64,000 nt of DNA from a virus. The notes beneath the pieces are model-generated. The model ran no database searches. It was not told where the DNA came from and saw nothing but the letters and a program-made list of their open reading frames with translations. The stretch is from the IMG/VR virus record IMGVR_UViG_3300033981_002321, positions 1 through 64,000 of that record. The stretch is one strand, 5' to 3'. Below, piece by piece: positions 21,207-33,965 of this stretch; within the stretch, counting starts at the first letter, position 1, and every line of letters starts with the position of its first letter. The translations under genes and the position numbers were made by a program.

Positions 21207-21235
21207 ACCATAGCACCATTGGCCCCAGCTGTCAA
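21207..21235 (-). promoter_or_regulatory. leftward promoter with operator palindrome
   Basis: Minus-strand TTGACA, 17 bases, TATGGT. The spacer holds GGGCCAATGGTGC (21213-21225), an imperfect copy of the palindrome. Lies just past the stop of the primase-like gene and serves the genes at 21011 and 20643. Confidence 0.65.
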
Positions 21236-22689
21236 GCGCTCTTAGGCAGTCCAGGGGGCGGGGAACTGCAAAGTATAGAGCTATCCAGCAATCGTTTCAA
21301 CGGGTTTTCAATGAAACAATCAAATTCATCGAGATAAATGAAAGCTTCATAGAATTTTGAAGCAATTTTTTTACAGTTATATCGATTCGAGGGCGCCATT
21401 GACTTTCTGTACTGGTGCCTGCCTGGGTTGACACCGTTACTAAGGGGGGTGTGGGCCAGGAGAGAAACCCAGTATTCCCAGTGCTTCTCAAGGGTTCTGC
21501 GGCTGATCTTGGCTGCTTTGGCAAGTTCCCTCTTGCTCAGCCCTGCTGCTTTCTTGCAGTTCCTCCAAACAACTTTAAGCTTCTCTCGACTTTCTTTGAA
21601 AAGCCTCTCATTGCGATGCTTATCACCACCAAGCTTCTCTGCTGGTACAGCTTTCAAGTTGCCGAAATCCTTTTTAAGTGAACACCTTGCCAGTCTCTCG
21701 CCCCACCCACCACGAATTGCCGTCAAGTCTTTTTTAGTTTTATCAGATGCGTGTTCATCGAAGCCTTCTGTCTCAAGTGCATTATCTCTGATAATTTCTC
21801 CAAGCTGCACTGGGCAAGTGATGTGAGGGTTTTTAATTCTTGCAAGTGTTGTGATGCGCAGAAGTAGTTTCTCGCTTTGACCGCTTTCAGTCCACTTGAT
21901 GCCAGATTCCTTGCTGTTAAAGTTATTCGCTTTTTTCTTCGCCCCCAATGCGCCCCAGGCAGTTCTCTTCTTGAGCTGCTTTGCCGCTTCAATCAATTTT
22001 CGCCATTCATGGCAGTCTTTAGCCTCCTCCAAATCATTGTTGAGCTGGCTGTAAATTAAATCGCAGTCTTCAACGTATGACTCGTTGACGATCAGAGCGC
22101 TGCCCTGCTGTCCGGGGAGGCGGAATCCCTGGCTCTGGACCCGCCCCAGCGAGAGATCTTCCCGGAAGTCCATCCGTGAGGGGAACAGCTCTGCCTGGCC
22201 TTGCTGAGCCTCGATCCCGGCCCTCCTGAACAGCTCCATGCCGATCCAGTGGGCCAGCCAGCAGGGGGCGGCTTCGGGCAGAGAGATGTAGCAGTGCAGC
22301 CCACCAGACTCACTGCTGCGAATGAAAGATACAGAGCAGCCAGCTTTATTTGCTTCTTGTTCGAGTTGTATTAGTTCTTTGCTGCGAGCGAATTTGTGCC
22401 AGTATTTACTGCTGTAGTCTTCTTTGTGATCAAAGTCGCAGGTTATTGACCTTACAAATCCTTCGGGGCGGATACCAGCAATGTTTCTCTCGCTGCTGGT
22501 TAAGTTGCAGATCGCCTCTCTTCTGTAGGGCTTGGGCAGAGAAACCCATTCACCGCCGGGTTTCTTGGCGATGGCAAAGTGCCATTCACTGGGATGAGCA
22601 ACCGAGAGCCATTGCTCTTGGGGGGTGGGTTGCTGCTTGGGGCTTGGGTGCATTAGAATGCGCTTGTTCGACTTTGACAGTGAACACAT
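21232..22689 (-). CDS. primase-like replication protein with helix-turn-helix
   Basis: 485 residues from ATG 22689 (ATG 22653 is an alternative). SITCDFDHKE (81-90), SSESGGLHCYISLP (125-138) and QGQAELFPS (163-171) resemble the catalytic motifs of archaeo-eukaryotic-type primases (D-x-D, an s-x-H motif, and the ELFP segment seen in plasmid and phage primase/Rep proteins). Around 390-415, GLSKRELAKAAKISRRTLEK is a helix-turn-helix. No helicase Walker motif, so it would act as a primase or initiator that recruits other factors. Nearest candidate for a replication gene in the left arm. Confidence 0.6.
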   Translation of the reverse strand: MCSLSKSNKRILMHPSPKQQPTPQEQWLSVAHPSEWHFAIAKKPGGEWVSLPKPYRREAICNLTSSERNIAGIRPEGFVRSITCDFDHKEDYSSKYWHKFARSKELIQLEQEANKAGCSVSFIRSSESGGLHCYISLPEAAPCWLAHWIGMELFRRAGIEAQQGQAELFPSRMDFREDLSLGRVQSQGFRLPGQQGSALIVNESYVEDCDLIYSQLNNDLEEAKDCHEWRKLIEAAKQLKKRTAWGALGAKKKANNFNSKESGIKWTESGQSEKLLLRITTLARIKNPHITCPVQLGEIIRDNALETEGFDEHASDKTKKDLTAIRGGWGERLARCSLKKDFGNLKAVPAEKLGGDKHRNERLFKESREKLKVVWRNCKKAAGLSKRELAKAAKISRRTLEKHWEYWVSLLAHTPLSNGVNPGRHQYRKSMAPSNRYNCKKIASKFYEAFIYLDEFDCFIENPLKRLLDSSILCSSPPPGLPKSA

Positions 22690-23561: not shown

Positions 23562-23996
23562 TTACTGGCCAGCTATCAGCCTGAAGAGGTATTTGAATAT
23601 GTTGTCCCTGCTTGGGCCATCCTGCCTGCTGTATTCCACAATCCGCCCTTTCTCGACTCCGATTACGCTCTTTCTCCAGCGCATGTCTTCTGTAGCTAGC
23701 TCCCTGGCTTGTTTTTCGAGAGCCTCTCTCTCTATGCGATTATTTCGTATTTTTTGCATGATTTCTTTTTTGATCAGCAATAGATAAGCCTCTCTTTCTT
23801 CCTTGTCAAATGAAAATCCCTTGATTTCACGTCGGGCTGATTCCGCCTCCACGAGTTCCATCTCCTTTTCAGAGAGATGCAAGCTTTGCAGTTGCCGGTC
23901 GCTATCGAAATACCGACACTTTGTACATCGGTATTTGTCAAAAACTTCTTGACTGAAGCAAGTTCTGCAGGTGTAATGAAAAATGTACTTTGCCAT
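23562..23996 (-). CDS. zinc-finger and coiled-coil protein
   Basis: 144 residues. N-terminal YTCRTCFSQEVFDKYRCTKC gives two CxxC knuckles 13 residues apart, a zinc ribbon. Residues 40-115 are charged helix (EKEMELVEAESARREIKG and on). Probably nucleic-acid or protein binding; family unknown. Confidence 0.6.
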   Translation of the reverse strand: MAKYIFHYTCRTCFSQEVFDKYRCTKCRYFDSDRQLQSLHLSEKEMELVEAESARREIKGFSFDKEEREAYLLLIKKEIMQKIRNNRIEREALEKQARELATEDMRWRKSVIGVEKGRIVEYSRQDGPSRDNIFKYLFRLIAGQ

Positions 23997-24015: not shown

Positions 24016-24258
24016 CTAGAAGGGGCAGTCTTTGCGATAGGAGATGTGAACGTATTCGTATTCCGAGTCGTCCATACTTTTTGGCTTCGGACTCGACGAA
24101 GCAGTAGGTTTCTGCTTTGGTTTTTCCATGTCGATCCGGAGAGAGGCTCCGTCAATTCTGCCTCTGTACGCATCAAACCAATGCTTGAGTGTGTAGTATT
24201 CGGTTTCATTTTCGGCTAAAACCGTAAGTGTTCCGTCTTTGCTGATAGCTGCTTTCAT
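24016..24258 (-). CDS. small conserved phage protein
   Basis: 80 residues. MKAAISKDGTLTVLAENETE then YYTLKHWFDAYRGR: a short beta hairpin and helix that I recognise from phages (ISxDGxLTVxAExExExYALxxWF). The second half is Lys/Pro/Ser-rich, a flexible tail. Function unknown. Confidence 0.6.
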   Translation of the reverse strand: MKAAISKDGTLTVLAENETEYYTLKHWFDAYRGRIDGASLRIDMEKPKQKPTASSSPKPKSMDDSEYEYVHISYRKDCPF

Positions 24259-24310: not shown

Positions 24311-25309
24311 TTACACCCCCGTGACGAAAACAGGCTTATACCACTGGACTTTTCTTTCAGATTTTCTTGGCCCGCACAGAACTGTGTGCCAATGCCCACG
24401 CCTCCAATGCGCCCTGACGGCCTTCTTCTCTTCCGTGCTCTCTTGTGATCGCTTGGCCTTCTTTCTCTCGTACTTGAAATTCTTGCCAATCCAGGTGGGG
24501 GCGAGAGGTTGCTTGCCACTATTCCCACCAAAGCCCATGCCTTTTGTGATGGGGCGAGAGTCTGTAGAGATCAGCTCTGGCTCATATAGGTGTACGAGCA
24601 GTGAGTTGATGGCAATTCGCAGTATCTTTTCAGTGCTCTCGTTTTGATAGCCAGAGTTCTCTGCGTACTTTATGTTTTCCTCGTGCCAGCTCTTGGCGTT
24701 CTCGTCAACGAACTCTTGCCAGAAGTTGCTGCCCCCTGGTGTGATCGTCCCCACCTGTATTCCGCTCGCCCCCAAAAAAGCATCGGGGCTGAGCTTTTCG
24801 TTTGGAAAAAATTGCTTACATATTTCTTTACCTCTTTTCATCTCATCGCTTTCGATCTCTGGGTATAGCTCGCCGGTTCTGATAATCAAAGATACAACTT
24901 CATCCCCCTGGTGATCGTATATGAATTTGCGGGGCAAAAACAGATGAATGTATGGCAGCACTTCTAAAATGTCTTTTGTTAGTGATGGAGTCGGCGTATT
25001 GATAAACGCTTCGCACATTTCCCTGGTGATAAACCTTGCTGGGGCAGAATTAAGAAGAGCGTCTCTGCTCAATTCGCCAACCTTGACCGCGAGAACATCG
25101 CTATGCTCGTATCCGGTGAGGATCACACGCACACTCCCCGCTGCAAAGCATACCTTCAGGTGTGTGTTCCAGTCGATGTAGTTGGGCGGAGATCGATATA
25201 GAGATTCTTGCTTGAAGACTGCGTCTGTGTACTCTTTATTCGCCTCAAGCATTGAGGCAAGCTTTTGCATTGAGTTTTTTGCAAAGTTGTCGAGCGAAAG
25301 CTTTGTCAT
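24311..25309 (-). CDS. AcrVA2-family-like protein
   Basis: 332 residues. The C-terminus reads HWRRGHWHTVLCGPRK (301-316) and KVQWYKPVFV (320-329), which matches my memory of the end of AcrVA2 (a RRGHWHGYW-type segment followed by W-x-P-x-F-V) and of the wider family carrying that name. Upstream, LPYIHLFLPRKFIYD and ILRIAINSLLVHLYEPEL fit the same family layout. AcrVA2 of Moraxella blocks production of Cas12a by promoting loss of its mRNA. Many relatives live in genomes without Cas12a, so the target here may differ. Start overlaps the stop of the gene upstream. Confidence 0.6.
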   Translation of the reverse strand: MTKLSLDNFAKNSMQKLASMLEANKEYTDAVFKQESLYRSPPNYIDWNTHLKVCFAAGSVRVILTGYEHSDVLAVKVGELSRDALLNSAPARFITREMCEAFINTPTPSLTKDILEVLPYIHLFLPRKFIYDHQGDEVVSLIIRTGELYPEIESDEMKRGKEICKQFFPNEKLSPDAFLGASGIQVGTITPGGSNFWQEFVDENAKSWHEENIKYAENSGYQNESTEKILRIAINSLLVHLYEPELISTDSRPITKGMGFGGNSGKQPLAPTWIGKNFKYERKKAKRSQESTEEKKAVRAHWRRGHWHTVLCGPRKSERKVQWYKPVFVTGV

Positions 25310-25476
25310 TGCTCTTCAGTGTCAATTGATTTGGACTTTTGTTTTTTCTTGTCGGTCTCAAGATGCCTAAAAAGATCAGGGTGATCCAAGGGCCACGAAG
25401 AAATCACCCCATTGCGCCCTGCGTAACGCGAACGTAAATTGTTGATCCACTGCTTGTATTCTTTGCTTGCTCTCAC
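25306..25476 (-). CDS. 56-residue basic protein
   Basis: From GTG 25476, which overlaps the upstream stop as GTGA; its own stop overlaps the ATG at 25309 (ATGA). Reads VRASKEYKQWINNLRSRYAG, then a Lys-rich tail (DKKKQKSKSIDTEEQ). Being locked between two coupled genes is the main support. It immediately precedes the AcrVA2-like gene. Confidence 0.55.
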   Translation of the reverse strand: MRASKEYKQWINNLRSRYAGRNGVISSWPLDHPDLFRHLETDKKKQKSKSIDTEEQ

Positions 25477-25784
25477 GACGGCTCAATTCCGCCAAGAATG
25501 CAAGCAATCATATCGGCCGCAGATTTGTTTTCTTTGCTCATTTCAATGCGCAGTGATATTTCTCGCCCAATCCACCACCATTGATTCGTAGCCTGCCCCT
25601 GCCAGGTTTCCGCAATTTTGGAAACTTCTACGAAAAACTGAGCCTGCTCTTCGTGATCAAGACCGCAAAACCATGCTGCAACCTCTTCGACTTCGGCAGA
25701 GATCAGTGCTGGCATTTTTGTGCCAGTCCCATCCGTTGACGGAATTTTCGTATAATCAGTTTGATCCGAGTCTCTGGTGTTCAT
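25473..25784 (-). CDS. conserved small phage protein
   Basis: 103 residues. After a polar start: EEVAAWFCGLDHEEQAQFFV then EVSKIAETW and QWWWIGREI. This DxEEQAxFF ... W ... QWxxI pattern is one I recognise from many phages, uncharacterised. Overlaps neighbours on both sides. Confidence 0.65.
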   Translation of the reverse strand: MNTRDSDQTDYTKIPSTDGTGTKMPALISAEVEEVAAWFCGLDHEEQAQFFVEVSKIAETWQGQATNQWWWIGREISLRIEMSKENKSAADMIACILGGIEPS

Positions 25785-26161
25785 TTCTTTTTAAGGCTGG
25801 GATGAGGGCAGACAAGATTCTTGATCCTGTCTTGTTCTTTCTCGATAGTCTTCTGCTGCTCGGCATACAATGCAAGATGCCTTTCCAGTGCATTTAGCTC
25901 GGGGGCCTTGCTGCCAACAGCATGACGCTTGAAGTAGTCTCGCAGCTCTTCCAGTACACCGAATTCGTACTCACTTCTTTCTGGACCCCATTTGCCATAG
26001 ACCTTATGCAGTTGGAATAACTGATACCATTCCTTGTCGTCAAGATACCTTCTCTTTGCTGCCCACATCAAATCACTGTACTTGAGCTTGTCATTTCGCT
26101 TTTGCTCTCGTTCGAGCTTTTTGTTTTCCTGGGCTTCGCGACGAGAAATGAAAGTTGCCAT
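25781..26161 (-). CDS. charged helical protein
   Basis: 126 residues, MATFISRREAQENKKLEREQ. Predominantly charged helix at both ends with a Trp/Tyr-rich middle (KEWYQLFQLHKVYGKWGP). Possible coiled coil. First gene after the duplicated membrane peptides. Confidence 0.55.
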   Translation of the reverse strand: MATFISRREAQENKKLEREQKRNDKLKYSDLMWAAKRRYLDDKEWYQLFQLHKVYGKWGPERSEYEFGVLEELRDYFKRHAVGSKAPELNALERHLALYAEQQKTIEKEQDRIKNLVCPHPSLKKK

Positions 26162-33105: not shown

Positions 33106-33366
33106 ATGACAACCAAAAGCACGTCTTTGCGAATTGCACGAATTACAAAAAAGTTTTATGAGTTAAATCCTTGCAAAGGCAGAAGCAGGTATCTCTCTAC
33201 AAAGGGAGGATTTACGGTCTGCGCTCGATGCTGTTGCATGAATCAGAGAAAGTTTGCGTTGAACGATCATTGGGAAGTTGTTGAAGACATGAACAATGTC
33301 TCGTCTCCCTATCTTTTCTGCGATAATTGTGGGGATAGCATCCCTCGACTCAAAAGCCCGCCATGA
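33106..33366 (+). CDS. zinc-ribbon protein
   Basis: 86 residues. Basic N-terminal helix, then VCARCCCMNQRKF and YLFCDNCGDSI: two CxxC pairs about 35 residues apart. Start is 56 bases after the terminator. Its stop overlaps the start of the methylase-like gene, so the two are coupled. Confidence 0.6.
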   Translation: MTTKSTSLRIARITKKFYELNPCKGRSRYLSTKGGFTVCARCCCMNQRKFALNDHWEVVEDMNNVSSPYLFCDNCGDSIPRLKSPP

Positions 33367-33965
33367 AAGTGCTAGTCGCCTGCGAGTTTTCCGGCAGAGT
33401 CAGAGAAGCTTTTGCAAGAAGGGGGCACTACGCTGTTTCTTGCGATTTGATCAAGACAGAGTTACCTGTTTCGGAAAACTCCAAACATTTTGTGGGCGAT
33501 GTAAGAAAAATGCTTGACAGAGACTGGGACATGATTATTGCCTTTCCCCCTTGCACCTATTTAGCGAGGGTCAGTGTTCGCTGGCTGAAAATACAGGAGG
33601 GGCGATGGGAAAAGATGCTGGACGCTGTAGAGTTTTTTAACTTGTTTCTGTCCTCCCCTTGCCCAAAGGTCTGTATCGAGAATCCAATAATGCACGGAGA
33701 AGCGAGGTCTCGCTTGCTTGTCCAGGATTATACGCAGAAGGTTCAGCCATATTCTTTTGGGCATCCAGAGCAGAAGGCTACTTGCTTTTGGCTTAAGGGG
33801 CTTTCAAAGTTGAAGGCCACAGAGGATGTTCAGCACATTATGCGAGGAATGCACCCGAATCAAATACAAAGAAGTAATAATGAGCCGGATACAAAAGATC
33901 GGCAAAAGAATCGTAGTAGGACTTACTTGGGGATTGCAGAGGCGATGGCTGAGCAATGGGGTTAA
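33363..33965 (+). CDS. DNA cytosine methyltransferase-like protein
   Basis: 200 residues. VLVACEFSGRVREAF (3-17) replaces the usual SAM-binding FxGxG opening, DWDMIIAFPPCTYL (54-67) holds the Pro-Cys pair of C5-cytosine methylases, and IENP (105-108) the ENV-like motif. FGHPEQKATCFWLKGL further on marks a phage family usually annotated as cytosine methyltransferase. It lacks the long target-recognition region of restriction-type enzymes. It may modify phage DNA or act on nucleotides; the substrate is not known to me. Confidence 0.7.
   Translation: MKVLVACEFSGRVREAFARRGHYAVSCDLIKTELPVSENSKHFVGDVRKMLDRDWDMIIAFPPCTYLARVSVRWLKIQEGRWEKMLDAVEFFNLFLSSPCPKVCIENPIMHGEARSRLLVQDYTQKVQPYSFGHPEQKATCFWLKGLSKLKATEDVQHIMRGMHPNQIQRSNNEPDTKDRQKNRSRTYLGIAEAMAEQWG

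Follow-up and report, generated by a model that had tools for sequence, protein, structure and literature searches.

The DNA analysed here (the window: 64,000 nucleotides, taken from a virus record of 75,393 bases) encodes on its minus strand a 332-aa protein, hereafter P0001 (24311..25309), which, judged from its sequence, is a distant member of the AcrVA2/FinQ superfamily, this membership being certain for its C-terminal domain. As a divergent member of that superfamily, P0001 might act as a translation-coupled mRNA silencer directed at a target other than Cas12a, a reading on which our confidence is evenly split. In the ORF list and its translation, the frame is intact, starts with ATG, and ends in ...AHWRRGHWHTVLCGPRKSERKVQWYKPVFVTGV; the family assignment draws on a match to phrog_6160, a profile match in the PDB, and an AlphaFold2 model. 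The record carries the genes of a tailed phage (terminase small and large subunits, the latter TerL, portal, and major head protein), and the P0001 gene is under purifying selection, as judged by comparison with a relative of 74% identity (dN/dS about 0.08, dS near saturation). A search of NCBIfam with P0001 gave no match up to an E-value of 1, Pfam gave nothing above the curated cut-off, and none of the PADLOC models of known anti-phage defence families matches the protein; two candidates, Pfam Methyltransf_33 (E 0.21) and AMPDH3 in the PDB (E 1.7), were set aside as falling below significance. Rfam and tRNA scans of the window returned no matches. Elsewhere in the window, a phage DNA methyltransferase is encoded on the plus strand (33363-33965; phrog_757, E 1e-50), which might provide a second function against restriction.

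The relationship with AcrVA2 is carried by the C-terminus, as the first-pass annotation had proposed from the motifs alone, and these motifs are indeed exactly present. phrog_6160, which by its matches is the AcrVA2 family, aligns over most of the length of AcrVA2 itself (E 1.4e-62) and of a Salmonella jumbo-phage protein (5e-45), and it matches P0001 at residues 274-331 (E 9.2e-10). Taken alone, P0001 finds AcrVA2 as its best match in the PDB at a non-significant E-value of 0.54, and a single-sequence search of viral contigs yields no relatives, an alignment being needed to reach them. Full-length or near-full-length relatives were found by tblastn on cyanobacterial plasmids, and an alignment including them retrieved 123 viral relatives (a figure also given as more than 80), the nearest being 74% identical. 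With a family profile of 36 sequences (P0001 and 35 relatives), the sole match among 177,635 PDB sequences is AcrVA2 (7ci1/7ci2; E 7.9e-9), over the last 63 positions; profile-profile comparison of the two families (hhalign) gives a probability of 98.6-99.4%, at about 12-15% identity between P0001 and AcrVA2 in profile alignments. From these comparisons, homology between the C-terminal HWRRGHWH...WxxPxxV domain of P0001 and that of AcrVA2 is beyond doubt. This domain (residues 297-332; 24314..24421, minus strand) is predicted to form four short strands carrying HWRRGHWH...G...W..P..V, and it is the most conserved part of the protein, with an entropy of 1.26 bits against 2.2-2.7 elsewhere; H301, W302, R303, R304, G305, H306, W307, W323, and P326 are invariant in the 36 sequences.

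Does the relationship extend beyond the tail? It is unlikely, in our estimate, that P0001 and AcrVA2 have only a general RNA- or ribosome-binding tail in common, P0001 being otherwise a different protein (a regulator, a structural accessory, or a defence component), and the evidence has to be read on both sides. The significant sequence matches are limited to the last 60 or so residues, and the cellular relatives L060, L061, L147, and L166 differ in length and bear N-terminal extensions, as such a tail would allow. When the C-terminal domain is cut from both families, hhalign gives a probability of only 1-14%, and when only the close clade is aligned, the observed score is reached in 5 of 100 block shuffles. 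Against this, the wide alignment without the C-terminal domain keeps a score of 28.4, which none of 100 block shuffles reaches (17.0 +/- 2.0, maximum 22.5). This residual signal is confined to residues 91-127 (ARFITREMCEAFINTPTPSLTKDILEVLPYIHLFLPR; 24929..25039, minus strand), a second family block of the form strand-helix-T/D..P..LP..strand that opens the middle domain. The comparison of profiles outside the RRGHWH domain thus gives a mixed answer, with nothing significant when taken alone and a signal above all 100 shuffles in the wide alignment; any sequence homology between P0001 and AcrVA2 in that region is weak.

The predicted structures also speak against a tail-only relationship. In the AlphaFold2 models of P0001 (pLDDT 86.2, pTM 0.81) and AcrVA2 (pLDDT 73.6), the secondary-structure elements follow the same order over the whole chain: a helical N-terminal part, strand-helix-helix-strand, more strands, two helices, and the tail strands, which number 3, 7, 7, and 3 residues in both. 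Each model has one additional helix, at 155-167 in P0001 and before the tail (258-275) in AcrVA2. Foldseek against BFVD gives 12 matches below 1e-3 for P0001 and 11 for the AcrVA2 model; P0001 also matches 7 of these 11 with values under 1e-4, plus an eighth at 1.1e-3, the common neighbours spanning about 300-390 alignment columns. The TM-scores of P0001 to these common matches are modest (0.3-0.4), so that the structural relationship with AcrVA2 remains remote and indirect, and a search of the PDB with the P0001 model found nothing significant, 7ci1 being absent among the best 50 matches listed. The expectation of an AcrVA2 fold is therefore borne out for the predicted topology and not for the direct search of the PDB; on the models, P0001 and AcrVA2 probably have a common fold.

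The family is joined by FinQ, the fertility inhibitor of IncI1 plasmids. In a phmmer search, FinQ matches 7ci1 at E 3.9e-17 in two separate stretches (i-E 2.5e-4 and 1.1e-9), the former being the middle block, which matches independently of the tail and corresponds to residues 91-127 of P0001; phrog_6160 matches FinQ at 9.6e-48 over residues 78-349. On this sequence evidence, FinQ belongs fully to the AcrVA2 family, with both middle domain and tail. We found no paper naming both FinQ and AcrVA2 in the literature searched, which left bioRxiv and most subscription papers outside. The annotation of FinQ on plasmid pH1519-88 (L012:2728-3819) uses a later start, giving 259 aa (780 bp); read from its beginning at 2728, the open frame encodes 363 aa and takes in the conserved middle block.

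The published activities of the two proteins meet at the level of the messenger. According to PMC8744291, which relays the 1989 description, FinQ causes transcripts of the F-plasmid tra operon to end early, at multiple sites and independently of Rho, and it is described there as acting on transcription rather than translation. AcrVA2 is reported to sense the N-terminus of nascent Cas12a, resulting in a translation-dependent loss of cas12a mRNA (PMC13131331). Loss of message along a translated gene is the phenotype common to FinQ and AcrVA2, the published support for the AcrVA2 mechanism consisting of one preprint and one review. LSKT is the nascent peptide through which AcrVA2 acts on cas12a mRNA.

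From the homology with AcrVA2 and the mRNA-level phenotype of FinQ, we infer a mechanism for P0001, including nascent-peptide recognition, mRNA loss, and the identity of the target. The variable N-terminal and middle domains would recognise a short peptide within one particular protein still being made on the ribosome, while the near-invariant basic/aromatic C-terminal domain (HxRRGHWH...W..P) would dock to the ribosome or the mRNA, or recruit or supply a nuclease; the mRNA of the target would then be lost. This target is probably a host protein, a defence system being the first candidate, or a protein of a competing element. Conservation is much higher in the tail than elsewhere in the protein, which fits a common effector or docking part combined with changing recognition parts. 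One could also propose, following the 1989 view of FinQ as cited in PMC8744291, that the family acts on RNA polymerase by premature transcription termination, the loss of cas12a mRNA being a mere consequence; we regard this as very improbable, as what matters for the activity of AcrVA2 is the amino-acid sequence of the nascent N-terminus, promoter and codon use being without influence (PMC13131331).

Whether Cas12a itself could be the target of P0001 depends on the host. The closest TerL proteins are those of Synechococcus phages (36%), nucleotide matches to the 45-53 kb stretch are limited to thymidylate synthase (ThyX) genes of Synechococcus phages, and the nearest cellular relatives of P0001 belong to Cyanobium and related picocyanobacteria; the host is thus probably a picocyanobacterium (Cyanobiaceae). 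The major head protein and a 673-aa phrog_1735 protein indicated no host. Cas12a (TIGR04330) was detected in none of 300 Cyanobiaceae genomes, and as a positive control the same model scored above cut-off in 5 of 386 Cyanobacteriota genomes; PF18501, also tried as a probe, matched nowhere, controls included, and was replaced by TIGR04330. Full-length Cas12a is encoded in these five Cyanobacteriota genomes, G105, G114, G176, G316, and G377 (1.7-2.1 Mb). The AcrVA2-like family, for its part, occurs in 22 of the 300 Cyanobiaceae genomes, with up to four matches per genome, and cas1 was found in 4 of these 22.

The suggestion in the first-pass annotation that the family extends far beyond hosts with Cas12a is thereby upheld, and we count its corollary, that relatives may have other targets, as supported too, the target itself being a matter of deduction. 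As the likely hosts have no detectable Cas12a, the AcrVA2-like family probably silences other targets, and P0001, in a host that is itself deduced, probably has a target other than Cas12a. That P0001 would genuinely inhibit Cas12a, as AcrVA2 does, in a host equipped with Cas12a, is suggested by the homology of the two proteins; we give it scarcely any credence in view of the 0/300 count in the presumed host family and of the 18 family-carrying genomes out of 22 without cas1.

We also considered the genes surrounding P0001, all on the minus strand. Upstream, genes of 126 aa (a charged protein, 25781..26161), 103 aa (25473..25784), and 56 aa (GTG start, 25306..25476) lead to the 332-aa gene through successive overlaps ATGA, GTGA, and ATGA, those of the 103-aa gene with its neighbours being of 4 nt. 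In the four closest relatives (L014-L017), a homologue of the 126-aa protein (60-72% identical) is encoded directly upstream of the AcrVA2-like gene, whereas the 103-aa gene, specific to this phage, and the 56-aa gene, with no homologue in relatives or phages, have a counterpart in no other locus. The 56-aa gene had been noted as translationally coupled to the P0001 gene and as its possible partner: the coupling agrees with the ATGA overlap, and the partnership is not retained, the gene missing from all relatives and so not being a conserved partner. The unit that is kept is the P0001 gene itself, not a pair. In other relatives, the AcrVA2-like gene precedes the terminase by about 1 kb.

Downstream, ORFs of 80 aa (24016..24258) and 144 aa (23562..23996; phrog_29620, E 7e-5) have homologues 88.8% and 93.8% identical, respectively, in L032. 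Further on, a 485-aa protein (21232..22689) shows weak primase-like (AEP) and HTH/sigma-like matches (PF07638, E 5e-5; AEP-TOTE, E 0.07) and has homologues in L014, L015, L032, L022, and L027; it is a probable replication gene of the same module as the P0001 gene. The assignment to a phage early operon holds as far as a tailed phage and overlapping minus-strand genes near this replication-like gene are concerned, early expression being simply consistent with the arrangement. In scans for promoters and terminators, the counts were close to those of shuffled sequences (6 against 4.6 and 7 against 7.1, respectively), and we therefore claim no operon borders from them.

The location bears on what P0001 would be for. 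Rather than counter-defence, it might guard the niche of the phage, silencing genes of competing plasmids or phages in the same cell in a FinQ-like manner: FinQ, a clear homologue of AcrVA2, acts against a rival plasmid, and members of the family are common on plasmids. However, the part of this tailed phage in which the gene lies is probably an early region, and there genes more commonly serve counter-defence; we hold the guarding of the niche to be rather improbable as a purpose for P0001.

The chromosomal copies found in Cyanobium lie in a defence island, adjoining type I RM genes, BREX brxC and brxF, a DUF1156 methylase with DUF499, and a PDC-S02 Mrr-like gene. At a threshold of 1e-20, the 66 neighbouring proteins matched 150 PADLOC models, whereas 65 control proteins, drawn from arbitrary sites in four of the genomes concerned, matched 9; this enrichment is given without a P value, as there is overlap among the models and orthology among several loci (a match to rad52-like DNA repair recurs in 7 proteins). 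A TPR protein and a 254-aa protein stand between many of the chromosomal copies and the defence systems. The Cyanobium/Synechococcus loci L107-L120 and L199-L204 represent a chromosomal hotspot adjoining a rad52-like gene and composed of the AcrVA2-like gene, the TPR protein (about 370 aa), the highly conserved 254-aa protein, which has no assigned family (e.g., L113:6467-7261, minus strand), and exchangeable defence systems (type I RM, BREX brxF-brxC, DUF1156/DUF499, and PDC-S02). Two IMG/VR sequences, L033 and L034, may be host DNA misclassified as viral, because they contain the Cyanobium chromosomal version and its 254-aa neighbour (complete in L033 and partial in L034). In one Cyanobium genome, ARAGORN called a tRNA-Gly inside the AcrVA2-like ORF (L199:6131-6214), probably a false positive, as none was called in L113.

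Other relatives come in different settings. On two Nostoc plasmids (L009:1700-4013 and L010:1535-3833), HNH, AcrVA2-like (tail HWRRGFLR), and DUF262 genes follow one another with 4-nt overlaps, a trio that resembles a type IV restriction-like operon enclosing a putative silencer. N-terminal extensions of 100-200 residues are found in the IMG/VR sequences L060:2515-4176, L061:2120-3628, L074, and L089; that of L061 matches phrog_28338, and a Pfam scan of the longer relatives found no telling fusion domain. A large cellular subfamily of Proteobacteria, Bacteroidota, and Peptococcaceae (L147, L164, L166, L172, L165, L158, L168, and L146), without a Pfam model, carries the tail HWRRGHWRxQ...W..P..V...GHxY.

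We put forward tentatively, with somewhat less than even confidence, that AcrVA2, FinQ, and P0001 could represent branches of a single superfamily, large and as yet undescribed, of sequence-programmable silencers, each destroying the mRNA of a chosen protein during its synthesis. If so, phages, plasmids, and chromosomal defence islands would use this superfamily against many targets, of which Cas12a and F tra would be the first two known. The family relationship links a CRISPR inhibitor with an unusual mechanism to the fertility inhibitor FinQ, known since 1989, and to a widespread family of cyanophages and bacterial defence islands; the membership of FinQ, the presence of the family in Cyanobiaceae without Cas12a, and the location of chromosomal Cyanobium copies in a defence island go beyond the first-pass annotation. 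Two questions thereby open to testing are the way in which FinQ shuts off tra expression and the generality of translation-coupled mRNA silencing, which could be a common weapon between mobile elements or a peculiarity of Moraxella prophages.

Among known systems, TTC5, which acts in the autoregulation of eukaryotic tubulin, couples nascent-peptide recognition to the decay of the encoding mRNA (PMC10403363); it is cited here as an analogy only, with no homology claimed. AcrVA2, the anti-CRISPR of a Moraxella prophage (7ci1, 7ci2), resembles P0001 in its length, its helix/strand order, its phage-borne nature, its RRGHWH...W..P..V C-terminal domain, and its strand-helix-P-LP-strand block, and differs in that its target is Cas12a, whereas the likely host family of P0001 has no detectable Cas12a. 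FinQ, in the same PHROG family as AcrVA2, has both conserved blocks, with the tail motif RPHIRRGHWHTYWTG...W.PPVPV; unlike P0001, it is plasmid-borne, is directed against the F-plasmid tra operon, and is nearer to AcrVA2 than to P0001. ORF43 of Shewanella phage vB_SbaS_Y11, reported as a putative Acr (PMC10846135), is, like P0001, a phage-borne AcrVA2 homologue, a close one (PDB E 1.5e-72) where P0001 is remote. Finally, the FinQ-like genes of Erwinia and Salmonella jumbo phages (Special G gp231 and SA002 gene 78), annotated just as FinQ-like or hypothetical, encode proteins that match P0001 in their C-terminus; proteins of Erwinia phages are among the common Foldseek neighbours, and the SA002 protein, unlike P0001, belongs to the core of phrog_6160.
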